From Aquidulcibacter sp. (GTDB lineage Bacteria > Pseudomonadota > Alphaproteobacteria > Caulobacterales > Aquidulcibacteraceae): 64,000 nucleotides of DNA. Positions within the stretch are counted from its first letter, which is position 1, and each line of letters begins with the position of its first letter. Below the pieces are notes generated by a model. The model was not told the DNA's origin. It worked only from the letters and a program-made list of their open reading frames with translations, and made no database searches. Of this stretch, positions 3,159-51,359 are shown piece by piece. The position numbers and the translations under genes are program-made. The stretch is taken from NCBI RefSeq assembly GCF_020253525.1, contig NZ_JADCBK010000064.1, forward strand, positions 1 through 64,000. The letters run 5' to 3'.

Positions 3159-4121
3159 TCAATCGCGCGCACTGAGTTGAAACACCCGGACCGGCTCAAA
3201 CCGCCCCGCGCGTGCGTCGCCTATAGCCACGGCTTGACCTTGAAGGGTTGCCAATGCTGCCCGGCTCATATCTTCGCCAGAAACAACACGTGGTCTGCGC
3301 TTGGAGCGCAGCTCTTCAACCTGGTGGGGGAGAAGAACAATCCCGCGGCCTTGCCGCAACCTGAAAGCCTCTTCCGCTGTTACGGCCAGCGCCGGGATGT
3401 CGTCCAGCGCGGTCTCAACTGGCAAAAGGCTGTCGGACGCGGCGTCGCTATTGCACACTTCCTGCAGCTTTTCCAGTGTTATTGCTGCGCTCTCATGGAA
3501 TGGGCCGACGGAGGTACGACGCAAAGCACTCACATGGCCCTCCGCGCCAAGCGCTGTTGCGAGGTCACGGGCCAAGGCGCGGACGTAAAAGCCCTTGCCA
3601 CAGCGGCACTCAATCGTGGCGTGATCGGCGTCGGGCACATCGACGAGGCTCGCTTCGATCAGCAAGACGGTCCGTGCCTTGAGCTCAGGCACTTCACCAT
3701 CACGCGCCAGATCATAAGAGCGTTCGCCCGCGACCTTGATGGCGCTATAGATGGGCGGGACTTGCTGGATTTCACCGATGAAGCCTTTCAGAGCCTCTTC
3801 AATCGCCTCTTTGCTGGGCCGCACATCGGAAGTGGCGATGATTTTGCCTTCGCGGTCTTGGGTATCGGTGGATGCACCCCATTCGACCGTAAAGCGATAG
3901 GACTTCTCAGCCTCCATCAGCCAAGCCACCGTCTTGGTCGCCTCGCCGAGCGCAATCGGCAAAATGCCTGTCGCCAAGGGGTCGAGTGTGCCGGCATGGC
4001 CCGCCTTCTTCGCGTCAAATGCCCGCCGGACGCGCGTAACCGCATCGGTGGAGGTTAAGTGCAAGTCCTTATCCAGAACGATCCAGCCATGCACATCTTG
4101 GCCTTTCTTGCGCCGCGACAT
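3159..4121 (-). CDS. truB: tRNA pseudouridine(55) synthase
   Basis: TruB isomerises U55 in the T-loop of tRNAs. The catalytic Asp is D47 in [12 protein letters not shown]. The family motifs [19 protein letters not shown] and the [12 protein letters not shown] stretch follow. The 320-residue length is normal. Its ATG overlaps the rbfA TGA by one base (TGATG), indicating translational coupling inside the nusA-infB-type operon. Confidence 0.96.
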
Positions 4122-18812: not shown

Positions 18813-19394
18813 TCAATTGAACGGTTCGTTACGGAATGCCGATGTTGCGGCAATGATGCGGTTATAGTTTCCGAGGGTGCCGCCCGAAGACGTGTCGGAG
18901 AAATTCCGCATGGCGTTGGAAATGCCAGGGGTCATCAAGGGCCAGACATAATAGCCGCGCACCACAACAATCGCGTTGGCTGCTGTCGTCTCATAGGGCT
19001 CATCGGCGGCTGAACCCGGTGTTAAGGTCCCATCTGCCCAGGGAACAGGCAAAGTACCAGACACGGGCTGGTTCTGAACTTGAACAAACAAGCGGGCATT
19101 ACAATCAGCCAAGCCCATCATGCGGGCACAAACATTGGCTTTAAACTGGGTCTTTGTAATTGGGGCAGAAGTAGATTGTGCCTGACCTGTTCGAATTTTC
19201 CGTGCTTCTTCGGCGACGGCGGCTTCTAGCGTCGTCTGCACAAAGAAGATCATCATGGTTTCGAAAATGCCAAACAACATGAAGATGAATGGCGTGGCGA
19301 CCATCGCGAATTCAACAGCAGCCGTGCCCCGCTTGCCCTGCTTAGCACGACGAGAACGCAGCCGCTTAACCATGATCGAGAGCAATGCAGACAT
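18813..19394 (-). CDS. TadE-family pseudopilin
   Basis: RGTAAVEFAMVATPFIFMLFGIFETMMIFF is the classical TadE motif, with the conserved Glu and an aromatic-rich transmembrane helix. The periplasmic domain follows. The start MSALLSIMVKRL (19394) has an AAGGAG SD eight bases upstream. The ORF-track start is 11 codons earlier without support. It is followed after 11 bp by the second pseudopilin gene and is probably cotranscribed with it. Confidence 0.82.
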   Translation of the reverse strand: MSALLSIMVKRLRSRRAKQGKRGTAAVEFAMVATPFIFMLFGIFETMMIFFVQTTLEAAVAEEARKIRTGQAQSTSAPITKTQFKANVCARMMGLADCNARLFVQVQNQPVSGTLPVPWADGTLTPGSAADEPYETTAANAIVVVRGYYVWPLMTPGISNAMRNFSDTSSGGTLGNYNRIIAATSAFRNEPFN

Positions 19395-19491
19395 CGTCCA
19401 CTCCTTCAACGCAGGCCCACTAAGCACAGAGGGCCTTTCAGCCTGCTTAAAGCGACGATGACATTTTTATCTATTAACGACGATCTGCGCT

Positions 19492-19956
19492 CTATTGGCG
19501 CGAACCTGAGCCCGCAGCAAAACCCGATCGCTGGTTGATGGCCGTCACCGCGGGATTATTGCCCTGCGTGGTCCCCTCAGAATGAACATTCGGGATGCAC
19601 CGCTCCTGACAGATTGCAGTGGAAATCTCTCTGCCACGTTGAATGGTAACCATGTCGCGCACATTAGCTGGCCGCACTTGCACAGTACCCGAAAACACCG
19701 TGCGGCCCGCGGCGTCTACAGCGGTAATCTCTGTCGTGCCGGTTGACTTGCCGATGACGAAGAGCACGCGGGCATCATGGACAATCACATCGGCAATGCT
19801 GGCATTTCCGACAACCACACCCGTCACTGGGCGCTCAAAGCGCAAGGGTTGGGTTTGATCGACTTCCAATTGAAAAGATTGCGCGGCTGCCGAACTTGCA
19901 ACCAGTACGACAAAGGCGCTGGCAAACAAAGCCAATGATTTTGGAAAGTTGGACAT
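19492..19956 (-). CDS. Secreted pilus-assembly N-terminal-domain protein (CpaC-N-like)
   Basis: A Sec signal peptide (FASAFVVLVASSAAAQ) is followed by the domain found at the N-terminus of CpaC/RcpA secretins: QPLRFERPVTGVVVGNASIADV, then VLFVIGKSTGTTEITAVD. The secretin body is absent. Stand-alone versions occur in alphaproteobacterial Tad loci and may help secretin assembly (inference). The last 40 residues contain two Cys (ICQERCIP) and are Gly/Ser/Asn-rich. It lies upstream of the pseudopilins on minus and diverges from the pilin genes. Confidence 0.78.
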   Translation of the reverse strand: MSNFPKSLALFASAFVVLVASSAAAQSFQLEVDQTQPLRFERPVTGVVVGNASIADVIVHDARVLFVIGKSTGTTEITAVDAAGRTVFSGTVQVRPANVRDMVTIQRGREISTAICQERCIPNVHSEGTTQGNNPAVTAINQRSGFAAGSGSRQ

Positions 19957-20378
19957 GACAGAACTCCGTGCTGCTGCTTGTTTTACCGCCCACCTGTAAA
20001 CCAGCCATTAACAAGTAAACGCCGCTTGAGGCCGAAAATCTCGCAACTTGTGACGACGAAAAGTTTGAATAATTCCCCCTTTCCATGCGCGTATAATATG
20101 TAGAGAAGATACCTTCGGGTAAATTCGTCCAATATAAGACACACAACTTATAGTTTCATGAAAAAGAAAATATTTGTTTTTTGCACTGCTGACTGATTTT
20201 TGTATTTTGAGCGGTAACATATTACTCCATATTTTTTACCCAATTCTCCGGAAATTACAAAAGTGTCGAAATTTTGGCAAAATGTGGCAAATAATAGTAT
20301 TTAAAATCAGATAGTTACGACAGCTATGCCATAAATTCGCTGAAAAAGTGGCATGTCGGATCAATTCTTACGATTCAG

Positions 20379-20393
20379 TTAACGCGCTGTTCA
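20379..20393 (+). promoter_or_regulatory. CtrA-like box upstream of pilin 1
   Basis: TTAA-CGCGCTG-TTCA matches the CtrA consensus TTAA-N7-TTAA at seven of eight positions, 90 bases before the pilin ATG. In Caulobacter crescentus pilA is activated by CtrA. The functional claim here is an inference from that precedent. Confidence 0.45.
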
Positions 20394-20482
20394 TGAGTCT
20401 TCAAGAGAACGAGGCGGACACGGGGAAATGGAAGCAATCAAGACTTCAACCCCCTGGTCGCATGTAGAAAGGAAACCTAAAG

Positions 20483-20653
20483 ATGAAAAAGTTTTTGAAG
20501 AAAATCCGCAACAATGAGTCCGGTGCTACCGCTATCGAGTACGGCTTGATCGCAGCTTTGATCGCTGTGGTTCTGATTAGCTCGTTAAGCACCTTGGGCA
20601 ACAATATGAGCGAACGCTTCAACTCGATTGGTACCTCGATCGGCAGCCGCTAA
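20483..20653 (+). CDS. Flp/PilA-type major pilin, copy 1
   Basis: The 56-residue product MKKFLKKIRNNESGATAIEYG is too short for the ORF track. The basic leader ends at G14, followed by ATAIEYGLIAALIAVVLI. This is the Flp motif with Glu5 and Tyr6 after the predicted CpaA cleavage site, and the helix that forms the fibre core. The SD AAAGGAAA is nine bases upstream. It differs from copy 2 at six residues (for example FL for LF, SLSTLG for TSLGTLG). A weak hairpin terminator follows. Confidence 0.95.
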   Translation: MKKFLKKIRNNESGATAIEYGLIAALIAVVLISSLSTLGNNMSERFNSIGTSIGSR

Positions 20654-20678
20654 TACAGACTTTGTCAATTAAAATTGG

Positions 20679-20710
20679 CGCTTGGTCTTCGGGCCAAGCG
20701 TCTCTTTGCT
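20679..20710 (+). terminator. Weak hairpin terminator after pilin 1
   Basis: CGCTTGG, tcttcggg, CCAAGCG is followed by tctctttgct, an interrupted T-tract. The counterpart after pilin 2 has eight Ts. Read-through from pilin 1 into pilin 2 therefore seems possible. Confidence 0.6.
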
Positions 20711-21030
20711 CTCCGACGCGTACAAGATGTTCTCCTACGCGTATAAGATATAAAGCAAACCCCAGGAGGAAAGTGCGACTGATCCCGGGTGAACAACTTT
20801 CAATTTTCTGAGGGAGAAATGCTAGTTTTTATGGCTTAATGGGCTGTGCTTTGTACTTTGAGCGGTAACATATTACTTCGTATTTTCTATCTAATTCTAC
20901 GGAACCTATGAAGTTGCAGAAATTTTGGCAAAAGAAGACACAAAAATCATCATTAAAATCAGTAAGTTGAATTTGTGTGGCCGCAAATGTGCCGAGAAAG
21001 TGGCATGTCAGTTCAATTTTTACGTTTCAG

Positions 21031-21045
21031 TTTACGCCATGTTTA
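21031..21045 (+). promoter_or_regulatory. Degenerate CtrA-like box upstream of pilin 2
   Basis: TTTA-CGCCATG-TTTA occupies the place equivalent to the box before pilin 1 and matches six of eight consensus positions. Weaker binding than at copy 1 would be expected if the site is real. Confidence 0.3.
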
Positions 21046-21134
21046 TGAGTCTTCGCTAGAACGATGAGGACACAGGGAATTAGAAGCAATCAAGACTTCA
21101 ACCACCCGGTCGCATGTAGAATGGGAACCTAAAA

Positions 21135-21305
21135 ATGAAAAAGCTTTTCAAGAAAATCCGCAACAATGAGTCCGGTGCAACCGCTATCGAATACGGTCTG
21201 ATCGCAGCTTTGATCGCTGTTGTTCTGATCACCTCGTTGGGCACCTTGGGCAACAACATGAGCGCCCGCTTCAACTCGATCGGTACCTCGATCGGCAGCC
21301 GCTAA
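21135..21305 (+). CDS. Flp/PilA-type major pilin, copy 2
   Basis: The 56-residue paralogue MKKLFKKIRNNESGATAIEYG has the same cleavage and fibre motifs as copy 1. Its SD is degraded (ATGGGAA instead of AAAGGAAA), so it may be translated less well. A strong terminator follows. Having two near-identical pilins allows dosage effects or mixed filaments; which one dominates cannot be read from sequence. Confidence 0.95.
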   Translation: MKKLFKKIRNNESGATAIEYGLIAALIAVVLITSLGTLGNNMSARFNSIGTSIGSR

Positions 21306-21328
21306 TACAGACTTTGTCTGTTAAAATT

Positions 21329-21362
21329 GGCGCTTGGTCTCCGGACCAAGCGCCTTTTTTTT
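21329..21362 (+). terminator. Strong Rho-independent terminator after pilin 2
   Basis: GGCGCTTGGTC, tccg, GACCAAGCGCC forms an 11-bp stem directly followed by eight Ts. It isolates pilin transcription from cpaA. Confidence 0.95.
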
Positions 21363-21433
21363 GTTCTTTACCCCAGCCTAGCTCCCTCAGCGCCATTTAC
21401 CTTGGCTTAGCGGAACCGTGCTAAAAGGCGACC

Positions 21434-21955
21434 ATGACACTTGGACCTGAAACATTTGCAGCAGCTGCAGGCTTGATCGCCTTTTCGGGGGCCATGATCT
21501 GGGCTGGGATAGGCGATGTTCGCACATTCCTAATCACAAACAAACTAAACATGCTGATTGCGGCAGGTTTTCTAGTTTTCGCGTTGCCGATGGGCTTAGG
21601 CGTGAATGATCTCGCGGCCCACGTTGGGGTTGGCCTAGTAACTACGATCATTGCCATGGGCATGTTCTTAATCGGCGTTTATGGCGGCGGTGATGCCAAA
21701 TTGACCGGTGCTGCAGCCTTGTGGCTTGGGCCAGCAGCTATGATGCCATTCATCCTATACACGGCCATAGCTGGTGGAATCTTGGTGCTGTTCCTTATCT
21801 TGGGCCGCCGCCTGGCGAAGCAGTTTGGTCTGCCCAAGAGTCCGCGCTGGGCACGTCGACTATTACGGAAATCCGCAGCCGTCCCTTACGGGGTTGCTTT
21901 GGGAATTGGGGCAATTCTTGCAACGCCATATACCGTTTGGTTTCCAAGCATTTAA
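21434..21955 (+). CDS. cpaA: Prepilin peptidase CpaA
   Basis: CpaA is the A24 aspartic prepilin peptidase of the Tad system. It is an integral membrane protein of 173 residues with five or six helices. The first catalytic Asp is in GIGDVRT (about residue 28) and the second in the GxGD-type motif YGGGDAKL. It should cleave the Flp pilins encoded just upstream and the TadE-type pseudopilins. It follows the pilin terminator by about 70 bp, so it has its own promoter. Confidence 0.93.
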   Translation: MTLGPETFAAAAGLIAFSGAMIWAGIGDVRTFLITNKLNMLIAAGFLVFALPMGLGVNDLAAHVGVGLVTTIIAMGMFLIGVYGGGDAKLTGAAALWLGPAAMMPFILYTAIAGGILVLFLILGRRLAKQFGLPKSPRWARRLLRKSAAVPYGVALGIGAILATPYTVWFPSI

Positions 21956-22006
21956 CCTAAAATTGTGTAAATTGTTTGCATTTCTTGAACCAAAGAAATC
22001 ATCGCG

Positions 22007-22021
22007 TTAACCTCTTCTTAG
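22007..22021 (+). promoter_or_regulatory. CtrA-like box upstream of cpaB
   Basis: TTAA-CCTCTTC-TTAG matches the CtrA consensus at seven of eight positions, about 100 bases before the cpaB start, in an AT-rich stretch. It is compatible with cell-cycle control of the cpaB-tadC operon (inference). Confidence 0.4.
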
Positions 22022-22119
22022 AACCTATTTACGCATGGTCGTCCGGTAAATCGTTTTGGATTTGGGTGATTCTCTAAGGGTTCAGCAGGAAATTGGCCTG
22101 CAAGAACCCTGAGCGGGAG

Positions 22120-22998
22120 ATGCGTAGCGTGAATATTCGGCAAATCTCGATCATTGGCGGTGCTTTGCTAGTCGCAGGTGGCGCATTCATTTGGATGCGG
22201 TCGCAAGCCGGAAACCCACAAGTCGCGCAACCGGTTGCGGTTGTCGAGGCCAAGGTCGAAACCGTCAATGTTTTGGTTGCTAAGCGCGATATGGTTGTGG
22301 GCGAACGCATTTCGCCGTCCTCCTTGGGATGGGAAGCCTATACCCCGACCAGCGCTGCTGCGCCCGGATTCATCTTGCAATCAAAAAGTCCCAAGGCAAT
22401 TGAAGAGCTAACCAATGGCATCGTTCGCCAAGCCATGGTGAAGGGCGAACCTGTGCTCGCCAGCAAAATTGTCGATGTTGATGCAAAAACAGGGGCGATG
22501 GCCGCACTGCTTACGCCCGGCATGCGCGCTGTCTCCTTCCCAATCAGCCCAGAAACAGCTGTTGCGGGTTTTGTGCTTCCAGATGATCGCGTCGACATTA
22601 TTCTGACGCGTGAGGTACAATTTACCTCTAATGGTCAGTCTCAGTCTAAGGTCGTTTCAGCGGCTATTTTGGAGAATGTCCGCGTGCTGGCAATCGACCA
22701 GTCGGTCACGCAGGATAAAGACAAAACAACCCTACCAGGCGGCGTCGCGACGGTTGAATTGTCTGCATCTGATGCTGAGAAAGTTCGTCTAGCGCATAAA
22801 CTTGGTGATTTATCCCTTATCTTGCGTGGCTATGCAGATGCTGGTGGTGCAACTTTTGCGTCGACCGGTACCGACGTCATGAGCCAACGCACTGGCATTG
22901 CGCAAACAAGCGACCCGAAGCCGGCGGCAACCCAAGTGGTCCAACAAGCTTCTCAGCCCATCCCGACGACCGTTAAAGTATATCGGGGAGGGCAGTGA
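22120..22998 (+). CDS. cpaB: Flp pilus assembly protein CpaB (RcpC)
   Basis: CpaB is a periplasmic protein anchored by one N-terminal helix (ISIIGGALLVAGGAFIW) that works with the CpaC secretin. An SAF/beta-clip domain reads VNVLVAKRDMVVGERISPSSLGW. The RcpC domain follows with MRAVSFPISPETAVAGFVLPDDRVDIILT. ATG 22120 is preferred over the track's TTG; a GTG nine bases on (MNIRQIS) has slightly better SD spacing and is the alternative. It is the first gene of the cpaBCDEF-tadBC operon. Confidence 0.92.
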   Translation: MRSVNIRQISIIGGALLVAGGAFIWMRSQAGNPQVAQPVAVVEAKVETVNVLVAKRDMVVGERISPSSLGWEAYTPTSAAAPGFILQSKSPKAIEELTNGIVRQAMVKGEPVLASKIVDVDAKTGAMAALLTPGMRAVSFPISPETAVAGFVLPDDRVDIILTREVQFTSNGQSQSKVVSAAILENVRVLAIDQSVTQDKDKTTLPGGVATVELSASDAEKVRLAHKLGDLSLILRGYADAGGATFASTGTDVMSQRTGIAQTSDPKPAATQVVQQASQPIPTTVKVYRGGQ

Positions 22999-24611
22999 TG
23001 CGCAGAACCCAAGCCGCGAAACGTCTACTCGCCGCAGCTTCGAGTCTTGTGCTGTGCGTTGGGTTGATCCCAAGCATGGCATCTGCCCAAGCTGCCATCT
23101 CAAAGCCCGCCAGTCACGCCACTACGACCCAGCGCCTCACCTTAGGGCTGGGTAAATCCGCGATTGTCGACTTGCCAGTTGATGCCCGCGATGTTGTGGT
23201 CTCTGACCCAAACATCACGGATGCAGTCATGCGCACCGGCCGCCGAGCCGTCCTACTCGGCACCCGAGCGGGTGAAACCAATGTCTTTTTTCTAGATGCG
23301 CAGGGCCGCCAGATTTTGGCACTGGAGATTCGGGTTGCCCGCGACACGTCGGAATTAAACGCTTTGATCCAACGCTTAGTGCCAGAGGCACGCGTTGTCG
23401 TTGATAGTGTGGGCGACTCTATCATTTTGACAGGCGAAGTCCCCAATGGACTGACGGCTGACCAAGTTCTGCGCATTGCCGGCCAATATGCAGGCGGCGT
23501 CGACAAAGTTCTGAACATGATGAGCGTCTTGTCGGGCGATCAAGTCATGCTGCGCGTTCGCATCGTAGAAATGCAGCGTTCGGTTATCAAGCAATTGGGC
23601 ATGAACCTGACCTCCACCAACATCCTCAATCAGCTTTTGCCGGAGGATTGGGGCCTTAAATTTGCGACTGCCAATGGCTTTTCGGTGAATGGGGCCTTCT
23701 TAGGCGGCACCACGATTGACTCGACTTGGGCACAAAACTTCATTCGCCCTGTTTCAAACTCGTTTCTGAGCGGCAATTCCAGTCTTCTTGACCCAACTGT
23801 CGGCGCGGGCGCAGGTGGCTTTAGTTCGAGGTTTAACCCTGATACGGGCCGCACAGAGGTCACCTATGGCCCCGGCGAACTGGTGTCGGGGCAGCGCACG
23901 GATAGCAACATCCAAGCATTGGAACGTGTTGGCTTGGCCCGGACCTTAGCCGAACCAAATCTTACTGCAACATCGGGTGAGCCCGCTAAATTCTTGGCCG
24001 GGGGTGAATTCCCTGTACCGACGGCCCAAGAAGGCAATCGCGTCTCGGTTGAATTCAAGCCCTTTGGTGTCGGCTTGGGCTTTACGCCCATCATCTTGAG
24101 CCCCGATCGTATATCTCTGAAGATTTCCACAGAAGTTTCCGAAATCTCCACGGCTGCCTCCTTCCGCCAGGCGGATACACTCATTCGGGATGCGGCAGGA
24201 AACATTACAGATACGATCCGCGGCTTGTCTATTCCTGGGGTCTCCGTACGGCGCGCCGAGAACACGATGGAGTTGCCTTCAGGGCGTTCGATGGTGATGG
24301 CCGGCCTCATTCAACAGGCAACGCGGCAGTCGATTGAGGGGATGCCCGGCCTCAAAGATCTCCCCATTTTGGGCAATCTCTTCCGGTCGCGTGACTTCCA
24401 AAGCAATGAAACCGAGCTGGTCATCATCGTCACGCCCTACATCGTAAAGTCGACGACCATGGACCAACTGCAGACGCCGGGAGATGGATACGCCCCATCA
24501 AATGACGCAACAGCCTTATTACTGGGTCGCATGAATAAAATCGTCAAACCCGATTCGAAGGGGCTGCCGCAAGGACGTTATCGTGCCCCTGTCGGCCATA
24601 TTGTGAATTAA
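22998..24611 (+). CDS. cpaC: Outer-membrane secretin CpaC (RcpA)
   Basis: CpaC forms the outer-membrane channel for the Flp pilus. A Sec signal peptide ending ASAQA is followed by the N-terminal pilus domain (LGLGKSAIVDLPVDARDVVVSDP), a BON/secretin-N region (VVDSVGDSIILTGEVPNG), and the secretin core. The core has RTLAEPNLTATSGEPAKFLAGGEFPVP and, near the end, MPGLKDLPILGNLFRS and ELVIIVTPYIV. The start overlaps the cpaB stop (TGATG). A Gly/Ser-rich insert of about 80 residues precedes the core. Confidence 0.96.
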   Translation: MRRTQAAKRLLAAASSLVLCVGLIPSMASAQAAISKPASHATTTQRLTLGLGKSAIVDLPVDARDVVVSDPNITDAVMRTGRRAVLLGTRAGETNVFFLDAQGRQILALEIRVARDTSELNALIQRLVPEARVVVDSVGDSIILTGEVPNGLTADQVLRIAGQYAGGVDKVLNMMSVLSGDQVMLRVRIVEMQRSVIKQLGMNLTSTNILNQLLPEDWGLKFATANGFSVNGAFLGGTTIDSTWAQNFIRPVSNSFLSGNSSLLDPTVGAGAGGFSSRFNPDTGRTEVTYGPGELVSGQRTDSNIQALERVGLARTLAEPNLTATSGEPAKFLAGGEFPVPTAQEGNRVSVEFKPFGVGLGFTPIILSPDRISLKISTEVSEISTAASFRQADTLIRDAAGNITDTIRGLSIPGVSVRRAENTMELPSGRSMVMAGLIQQATRQSIEGMPGLKDLPILGNLFRSRDFQSNETELVIIVTPYIVKSTTMDQLQTPGDGYAPSNDATALLLGRMNKIVKPDSKGLPQGRYRAPVGHIVN

Positions 24612-49016: not shown

Positions 49017-50063
49017 TTAGGCCAAACCTTTTACGCGGCGCATAACATATTCGACATTTGGGATCGGCGTTGCAGGAACCACACCATGTCCAAGGTTGAA
49101 GATATGTAGTCCCGTAGCCGCCGCGGCAAGAATGGCATCCACAGCCTGTTCAAGCGCCGCGCCACCGGCCATTAACGCCATCGGATCAAGATTGCCTTGT
49201 AAACAAACCTTTGGCCCCAATGCAGACCGGGCTGCACCCAAATCAGCTGCAATATCAAGTCCTACACCTTGGACGCCTGTCTCTTGCTGAAATTGGCCAA
49301 CGCGGTGGCCAGCCCCACGAGGAAAACCGATAATCGGAACTTCCGGATATACAGCGCGAACCACATCCACCGCGCGCTTTATTGGTTTGGTTACCAAACG
49401 AGCGAACAAGTGTCCGGGAATATCCTCGGCCCAAGATTCAAAAATCTGTAGCGCATTCGCCCCAGCCTTTATTTGGGCAATGAGATGTTGGCCAACGGCG
49501 TCTGCCAAAATTGCCAAAAGATCATCCACTAATTCGGGGTTCTGATAGGCAAAAGCCCGAGCAAGGTCACGTTCGCCCCCACGCCCCTGGATCATATAGG
49601 TTGCCAAGGTCCAAGGTGCGCCGGCAAAGCCTATTAACGCCCTGTCTGCATCCATCGCAGCCCGAACTCGTTCCAAAGCCTCATAGACGGGTGCCAAGCG
49701 CGTTTCCAAACGCGACATATCAAGTTTCGCAATATCTGCCGCGCCTTCAAGGGGTGTTAAAAGAGGCCCCTCGCCCTCTGCGAAACGCACATCCCGACCC
49801 AAAGCATGTGGGACCACCAAAATATCGGAAAAAATGATGGCTGCATCGACTGGATAACGACGAACAGGTTGCAATGTCGCTTCAGCAGCCGCTGCGGGCG
49901 CATAACAAAAATCAAGGAAGCTTTTATTCTTTGCGCGAAGTTCTCGATATTCTGGCAAATGACGGCCAGCTTGGCGCATGAGCCAGATCGGGGGATGGGC
50001 TTGCTGCTCACCTAGGAGGGTGCGAACCAACGCGCTATTTTGTCCCTTTGCTCCCTCACCCAT
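49017..50063 (-). CDS. hemE: Uroporphyrinogen decarboxylase
   Basis: HemE decarboxylates uroporphyrinogen III to coproporphyrinogen III. Motifs are IWLMRQAGRHLPEYRELR (N-terminal Arg/Gln loop), AAIIFSDILVVPHALG with the catalytic Asp, and GFAGAPWTLATYMIQG. The length of 348 is normal. It is transcribed leftward away from the origin candidate; in Caulobacter hemE flanks the origin in the same way, with promoters inside it. Confidence 0.97.
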   Translation of the reverse strand: MGEGAKGQNSALVRTLLGEQQAHPPIWLMRQAGRHLPEYRELRAKNKSFLDFCYAPAAAAEATLQPVRRYPVDAAIIFSDILVVPHALGRDVRFAEGEGPLLTPLEGAADIAKLDMSRLETRLAPVYEALERVRAAMDADRALIGFAGAPWTLATYMIQGRGGERDLARAFAYQNPELVDDLLAILADAVGQHLIAQIKAGANALQIFESWAEDIPGHLFARLVTKPIKRAVDVVRAVYPEVPIIGFPRGAGHRVGQFQQETGVQGVGLDIAADLGAARSALGPKVCLQGNLDPMALMAGGAALEQAVDAILAAAATGLHIFNLGHGVVPATPIPNVEYVMRRVKGLA

Positions 50064-50453
50064 CGCGAGCTCCCCTTCCCTTATAAGATTTAGATTCTTG
50101 AATCAGTAGACAGTAGTGCGGTGGATAGACTGATCCTTGCAAGTCACCTGCATGACCTAACGGGATTTCTCAAGCGGTTTATCAGCTTTTGCCCCGGTTT
50201 TCTCCACAGGGTGGAGAGGTCGAAAAGCTCTGAAAATCATGCGATTGCTTGCAGGATCGGGCAATAGTTACCCCCAATGGGGATGCTAATTTCAACATCT
50301 TACCAGCCCTGTGGATGTTCGAGAAAAGTTCCGCGTGGCTTTTTCTCCGGTAATACACAAGCGACGATTTGTCTCACATATTCATACAAAATTAACCGCG
50401 TTTCTTAGAGATTCATTAAGCCCTTTTAACAAGTTATTAACAGCCCTACCGGG
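50064..50453. other. oriC: Candidate chromosomal replication origin (Cori-like)
   Basis: The segment separates divergent hemE and the RP001/ppsR homologue, exactly the Caulobacter Cori setting, and dnaQ-coaE-aroE-maf synteny continues on the right. DnaA-like nonamers are visible. TTCTCCACA at 50200-50208 (8/9 to TTATCCACA) is inverted against GTGGAGAGG at 50211-50219. On the minus strand are CTATCCACC (50120-50128) and ACATCCACA (50310-50318). TAATACACA lies at 50351-50359, and TGATCCTTG at 50131-50139 is close to the Caulobacter G-box TGATCCACA. An IHF-like AATCATGCGATTG lies at 50235-50247. From about 50380 to 50440 the DNA is very AT-rich, a candidate unwinding element, and it holds a perfect CtrA box. 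No ORF fits the gap. Confidence 0.82.
50426..50440. promoter_or_regulatory. Perfect CtrA box in the origin candidate
   Basis: TTAA-CAAGTTA-TTAA followed by C matches the full CtrA recognition site TTAA-N7-TTAAC. Another TTAA lies ten bases upstream (50416-50419) with N6 spacing. In Caulobacter CtrA binds several such sites in Cori and represses replication in swarmer cells. This site could also affect transcription of the RP001 homologue. Confidence 0.75.
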
Positions 50454-50537
50454 ATGGCCTGGGCAGACGCCAAGAAGTTTGACCCGATCATGTATGAAAA
50501 CCTTGATCCGGACTGCGTCGTCAGCCACACCTTCCAC

Positions 50538-51359
50538 ATGCGCATTTCCACATTTCTAAATGTCCATTTGGTGTCTGACTCGACCGGCGAGACGCTGAAT
50601 GCCGTATTACGGGCAGTTGCACCTTTGTTTGAAGGTGTGACGCCGCTAGAGCATTCCTATTATCTGGTGCGCTCCCGTCGCCAATTGGACCGCGTCTTGG
50701 CAGAAATCGAATCCTTTCCAGGGGTAGTTCTTTTCACCATCGCGGCACACGATTTACGTGATGTGTTGGTAGACCATTGCAAGCGTTTAGGCATCCCGGC
50801 ACTACCACTTTTGGACCAAGTTCTCACCATGTGGGAACATCATTTGAAAATGCGGGCCGGCGAAAAGACCGGGTCTAAACAGGCGCTTGATGAAAATTAC
50901 TTCCGCCGGATTGATGCACTCAATTACACAATGGCCCATGATGACGGCCAAATGGTACATGAATTCAATCAGGCTGAAGTCGTTTTGGTTGGCGTAAGCC
51001 GTACGTCGAAAACCCCAACTTCCATTTATTTGGCCAACCGCGGTATTCGCACCGGGAATTTTCCACTGGTGCCAAAAGCGCCAATTCCGCAAGCCTTGTT
51101 AGAGCTAACCAAGCCTTTAGTAGTAGGACTTCGGGTTTCACCCGACCGATTGATTGCGATACGGCGAAATCGACTTTTGTCTCTCAATGCGGATGCGACG
51201 AGCGAATATGTTGATGAAGATGCTGTTCGTGAGGAGATAACAGATGCTAACCGTCTGTTTGAACGTCAGAATTGGCCGGTTATCGACGTAACGCGCCGAT
51301 CTATTGAGGAAACCTCTGCCGCGATCTTAAACCTGCTTGCCGAGCGCAATGCGAGATAA
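50538..51359 (+). CDS. Pyruvate, phosphate dikinase regulatory protein family (RP001/DUF299 kinase-pyrophosphorylase)
   Basis: LVSDSTGETLNAVLRA near the N-terminus and the P-loop-like GVSRTSKTPTSIYLANRG are hallmarks of the DUF299 family. This family contains bifunctional kinases/pyrophosphorylases acting on PPDK or PEP synthase. The homologue (RP001/CC_0001) marks the right side of the origin in Caulobacter and Rickettsia. The ORF can begin at 50454, 50490 or 50538 with no clear SD. MRISTFLNVHLVSDSTG (50538, 273 aa) matches the family length. Confidence 0.88.
   Translation: MRISTFLNVHLVSDSTGETLNAVLRAVAPLFEGVTPLEHSYYLVRSRRQLDRVLAEIESFPGVVLFTIAAHDLRDVLVDHCKRLGIPALPLLDQVLTMWEHHLKMRAGEKTGSKQALDENYFRRIDALNYTMAHDDGQMVHEFNQAEVVLVGVSRTSKTPTSIYLANRGIRTGNFPLVPKAPIPQALLELTKPLVVGLRVSPDRLIAIRRNRLLSLNADATSEYVDEDAVREEITDANRLFERQNWPVIDVTRRSIEETSAAILNLLAERNAR

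Follow-up and report, generated by a model that had tools for sequence, protein, structure and literature searches.

The hemE–ppsR gap as probable chromosomal replication origin of an Aquidulcibacter-group bacterium

The intergenic region that separates hemE from ppsR, at positions 50,064–50,489 of the stretch of DNA analysed here, is in our estimate about 94–95% likely to be the single chromosomal origin (oriC) of an Aquidulcibacter-group bacterium. The assignment draws on where the gap lies, on the skew of a close relative, on how well the gap is conserved and on the sites that it contains. Almost certainly, this is the standard origin place for bacteria of this class, and its control sites have a layout of their own; as such it is real and mostly expected. 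The assignment would fix the replication start for a bloom-associated freshwater genus that has cultured members, and for which no origin description was found in the literature examined. It also provides, from many species, a footprint of the origins of Caulobacterales other than Caulobacter, and yields predictions, to the base, of the unwinding site and of control by CtrA.

Position and boundaries of the gap

The window (G000:C129:1-64000) is the whole 64,000-nucleotide stretch that we analysed; it belongs to a draft genome of 3.49 Mb, assembled as 167 contigs. The genus is Aquidulcibacter/Ca. Phycosocius. Among named bacteria the closest are Aquidulcibacter paucihalophilus TH1-2, whose PpsR is 98% identical to that of the window, Hyphomonadaceae bacterium UKL13-1 (G004), with 95% identity and the one complete genome of this genus in the analysis, and Ca. 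Phycosocius. A 2025 study places the Aquidulcibacter family as sister to Hyphomonadaceae (PMC12700997).

The gap is flanked on the left by hemE (uroporphyrinogen decarboxylase; 49,017–50,063, minus strand; TIGR01464, 370 bits, over the cut-off) and on the right by ppsR (RP001/COG1806 homologue; 50,490–51,359, plus strand; NF003742, 308 bits). NCBIfam models identify rho, hemJ, hemH and hemE on one side and PpsR, a Maf-like protein, aroE, coaE, dnaQ and secB on the other, with hemJ slightly below its cut-off. This is the gene order that an earlier note on this DNA had read on both sides of the gap. That note set the extent of the origin at 50,064–50,537; its left edge stands, but the right edge probably moves to 50,489. 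In the alignment of eight species there is a 23-nt indel upstream of 50,490 and not a single gap from 50,490 onward, and hence ppsR probably starts at the ATG at 50,490 rather than at 50,538 (the mechanical ORF begins at 50,454). The true gap is then 50,064–50,489, about 430 bases, with an AT content of 53%. As in Cori-type origins, the two genes diverge from an intergenic region of a few hundred base pairs; the hemE–ppsR spacing is 296–584 bp between match ends in most of the alphaproteobacterial loci compared.

The contig of Ca. Phycosocius spiralis (L010/L038) breaks off at the origin, 26 bp short of the ppsR match, and its gap was left out. At 19,000–23,000 of the window, G+C falls to 0.46, compared with ~0.55 around it, possibly marking an acquired segment.

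Skew and the position of parABS

With the window's own genome in 167 contigs, skew was tested by proxy on the complete genome G004. A two-replichore fit to 20-kb samples places ori at 3.28 Mb, and ter half a chromosome away at 1.52 Mb; across fits, ter is estimated at 1.52–1.55 Mb, opposite ori. When the region 3.12–3.50 Mb is divided into adjoining 10-kb bins, cumulative GC skew is lowest in the bin at 3,270–3,280 kb, and ppsR (3,270,481–3,271,377) lies inside it. The GC skew of G004 is weak (R2 0.37–0.53), and with denser data the support interval for ori is wide (3.23–3.49 Mb). AT skew favours a position nearer 0 and is less precise than GC skew, gene-orientation skew was uninformative for origin position in G004, and the cumulative-skew minimum of the window's own contig is nearly tied between 39–41 kb and 50–52 kb. 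A location at dnaA (2.30 Mb in G004, 0.97 Mb away) is rejected, with a delta logL of -18.5 for the 20-kb samples and -10.7 for the denser data. The earlier note had proposed looking for the GC-skew minimum here or elsewhere, for example at dnaA; in this relative it falls at the hemE–ppsR gap. Together with conservation and the set of sites, this supports the note's placement of a chromosomal origin between hemE and the RP001 homologue.

In three genomes of the genus, the chromosomal parB gene and its pair of parS sites are found beyond ppsR, ~50 kb from the origin (G003:C1:642043-646112, G004:C1:3215942-3220010 and G008:C83:51522-55590). The parS sequences, CGTTTCACGTGAAACA and TGTTTCACGTGAAACC, were recognised from the parB neighbourhood; a consensus scan of G000 and G004 allowing up to two mismatches gave no credible match. 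In f2 relatives, unlike in the Aquidulcibacter genus, parB is ~10 kb from the origin and on the hemE side.

Conservation of the gap

We aligned the gap of eight congeneric species. Conserved blocks have 76–86% invariant columns and the near-neutral spacers between them 5–21%, relative to a baseline of 7% at the fourfold sites of hemE; the baseline uses hemE only, the ppsR figure being excluded with one species out of frame. The block at 50,142–50,190 (TCACCTGCATGACCTAA...GGATTTCTCAAGCKGTTTATCAG) is strongly conserved, with 41 of 49 columns invariant (84%) in the eight species, and contains no recognised site. A search against Rfam found no RNA element.

DnaA boxes and the site of unwinding

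Six nonamers in the gap are within two mismatches of TTATCCACA, compared with a mean of 0.9 per equal-sized segment of the 64 kb, and all segments with at least six overlap the gap. These sites are inverted and scattered, and they are weak (the best has one mismatch, most have two); both their layout and their departure from the E. coli consensus had been recognised in the earlier note. The box CTATCCACC at 50,120–50,128 (minus strand; inverted form GGTGGATAG) reads GGTGGAYAG in all eight species, and its TAGTNNGGTGGATAG is common to the genus g20. Further into the gap are the box TTCTCCACA at 50,200–50,208 (plus strand, one mismatch), a weak inverted DnaA-like pair at 50,268–50,283 (TTACCCCCA/TGGGGA, the latter the reverse complement of the W-box TCCCCA), and the box ACATCCACA at 50,310–50,318 (minus strand), which is surrounded by a block with 34 of 43 columns invariant. 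The DnaA encoded by the genome is full-length and its box-reading helices are conserved; DnaA would load on these weak boxes at 50,120, 50,200, 50,268–50,283 and 50,310. The IHF-like site that had been pointed out is AATCATGCGATTG at 50,235–50,247 (plus strand), one mismatch from WATCARNNNNTTR; the IHF search of the gap returned one-mismatch matches only. An IHF-type protein would bend the middle of the gap, and we lean slightly against this site being a functional part of the origin.

At the arginine-finger position of DnaA (B. subtilis R264 by alignment; L001 958-2466 (-), L207-L226), the Aquidulcibacter genus has V. Among the other Caulobacterales sampled, most have H, L, Q, E, I or K in place of Arg, which is retained in g7 and two f5 genomes. 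Absence of the arginine finger from Aquidulcibacter DnaA only is thus rejected, as the position varies in other sampled Caulobacterales families too.

The earlier note had described an AT-rich block; the gap has two AT-rich stretches, at 50,079–50,118 and 50,354–50,448. The first of these, on the hemE side, includes GANTC at 50,093–50,097 and 50,100–50,104 (GATTCttGAATC, within 50,079–50,104). Next to the 50,120 box, DnaA-trio-like repeats (AATCAGTAG, 50,101–50,109, plus strand) read 3'-GAT-GAC-TAA-5' outward from the box. The published BUS rule specifies a DnaA box with at most two mismatches, a spacer of at most 16 nt, and at least three 3'-NAN-5' trios (PMC8287927). The 50,120 box, with its 10-nt spacer and these three trios, conforms to this rule, which is permissive enough for a chance match to be possible. 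The g6 and g20 sequences conform too, with the box in the same orientation as in g1, the genus of the window. Most other genera of the family do not conform to the strict rule, and hence the evidence for a family-wide BUS is the strand-asymmetric GTAG: on the trio strand near hemE, GTAG is found in 10.3 of 18 groups compared with 2.5 in shuffles, whereas CTAC is not enriched (1.6, with 2.3 expected). The shared orientation in g6 and g20 and the strand specificity of GTAG both strengthen the case for a BUS on the hemE side. A DnaA filament would run from the 50,120 box onto the trio strand towards hemE, opening the AT-rich stretch there.

We favour, with some reserve, a start of unwinding on the hemE side; the reserve is because the AT-richest stretch sits at the ppsR end. 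There, the AT-richest 40-mer of the gap (72%) begins the case for a different reading, in which the origin is real but unwinding begins in the AT-rich CtrA block: this 40-mer is at 50,379, and the top 40-mer on the hemE side reaches 68%. Nonetheless, we consider this reading rather unlikely given the rule-conforming trio layout of g1, g6 and g20, the strand-specific enrichment of the TAG strand near hemE across 18 groups, and the AT-rich stretch of C. vibrioides, which also adjoins hemE.

CtrA sites at the ppsR end

The CtrA half-sites described in the earlier note are borne out as three sites on the plus strand: TTCATACAAAATTAA at 50,381–50,395 and TTAGAGATTCATTAA at 50,405–50,419, each with one mismatch and the second with a GANTC inside it at 50,410, and the perfect site TTAACAAGTTATTAA at 50,426–50,440. 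The last is the sole TTAA-N7-TTAA in the 64-kb window, and it overlaps an IHF-like match (50,427–50,439, one mismatch). The CtrA encoded by the genome has 83% identity over 226 residues to the Caulobacter CtrA sequence. GcrA and a RAMA-domain protein like CcrM are also encoded.

Phosphorylated CtrA at 50,381–50,440 would block initiation in the non-replicating cell and would probably also act on ppsR transcription, and the methylation state that CcrM gives the GANTC sites may indicate whether replication of the origin is recent. We think it likely that CtrA controls this origin. The sites could instead serve ppsR transcription only, with no control of initiation; they are directly upstream of ppsR, and the second half-site is TGAA, not TTAA, in two of the eight species. 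However, the conserved CtrA block, ~70 bp with three sites, exceeds the needs of one promoter, CtrA blocks DnaA at Cori (PMC4285127), and CtrA binds beside the origin of Hyphomonas neptunium (PMC7200025), all of which make a role in ppsR transcription only improbable. The presence of CtrA-like sites here is of some value because CtrA sites have not been seen in most other alphaproteobacterial origins, and were probably gained independently in some (review, PMC4468827).

A variable element at the ppsR end

A 17-bp element at 50,426–50,442 (plus strand, TTAACAAGTTATTAACA) has a DnaA-box form, CNAACAGCTTGTCCACA, in sister genera: at this place the sequence can be read in some genera as a DnaA box (TTGTCCACA) and in others as a CtrA half-site (TTGTTAACA). 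Of 18 groups, 5.2 carry the frame ACA-NN-TTRT-NN-AC, compared with 0.05 in shuffles. Its second NN is TA, giving the CtrA half-site, in six of eight g1 species, in g2, in g4, and in two g20 and two f4 genomes; it is GA in two of the eight g1 species, and CC or TC, giving the DnaA box, in 27 of 30 g11 genomes and one g9 genome. We also placed the two forms on a HemE tree, labelling them by patterns less strict than the frame. A supported clade of g1, g4, g6 and g20 is characterised by the CtrA form and most of its sister clade by the DnaA form, with g2 as the exception.

The Caulobacterales element may have switched in place between DnaA box and CtrA half-site by two base changes. We regard this as doubtful, and as an evolutionary lead rather than a result. 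If true, an activator site can turn into a repressor site in place, which would explain the repeated origin of CtrA control and offer a simple mutational path to the independent CtrA recruitment inferred by Marczynski and colleagues (PMC4468827).

The box-reading helix of DnaA domain IV in g7, g9, g10 and g11 (L212, L213, L214 and L218) reads GYDHTT, GFDHST, WDHTT or GFDHTT, not GRDHTT, and the His following this position is mostly altered too. The g9–g11 genera have a CTTGTCCACA box at the ppsR end; co-evolution of the helix variants and this box is possible.

Several groups have the element ~45–80 bp upstream of ppsR. In g11 it is followed 17 bp later by a conserved GATATG, and the two could be a -35 box and its -10. 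The gap might accordingly be no more than the promoters of the divergent hemE and ppsR, with the real origin elsewhere, e.g. at dnaA, but this is very improbable: two genes diverging from the gap and a possible -35/-10 pair would suit it, but the skew of G004 points to the gap and rejects dnaA, promoters would need neither six DnaA-like nonamers nor such long conserved blocks, and a sigma-70 scan found no promoter.

Comparison with known origins

Judged by its sequence, the gap is a member of the hemE–COG1806 (Cori-type) origins, but it is not Cori in detail. The Cori of Caulobacter crescentus has hemE and CC0001/COG1806 as flanks and CtrA sites of the form TTAA-N7-TTAA, one of them overlapped by an IHF site, along with G-boxes (TGATCCACA) and W-boxes (TCCCCA) (PMC4285127, PMC1914354). 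The Aquidulcibacter gap shares the flanking genes, a hemE-adjoining AT-rich stretch, weak DnaA boxes, the CtrA motif and its IHF-like overlap. In contrast, it contains no TGATCCACA G-box and one W-box-type hexamer. The five CtrA sites of Cori are spread across the whole origin, whereas the one perfect and two one-mismatch sites here are all at the ppsR end. Furthermore, parABS is 8 kb from the origin in Caulobacter (PMC6399470) and ~50 kb from it in the Aquidulcibacter genus. The variant Cori architecture suggested in the earlier note is thus accurate at the level of detail.

The layout on the hemE side resembles the BUS of B. subtilis and others (PMC8287927) in its box with at most two mismatches, 10-nt spacer, three NAN trios and AT-rich stretch beyond, but the Aquidulcibacter box ends in C (TATCCACC). 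Hyphomonas neptunium belongs to the sister family; ambiguous skew and DnaA sites had given no clear origin for it, and its marker-frequency peak is near hemE, not dnaA (PMC6650430). A CtrA ChIP peak adjoins that origin (PMC7200025), and its parAB is only ~7 kb from hemE. The hemE–RP001 origin of Rickettsia prowazekii has the same flanking genes, and CtrA and IHF sites have been proposed for it (PMC1914354); it is >80% AT, compared with 53% in the Aquidulcibacter gap. The Aquidulcibacter origin is therefore variation within a known kind, and divergence between hemE origins has already been described.
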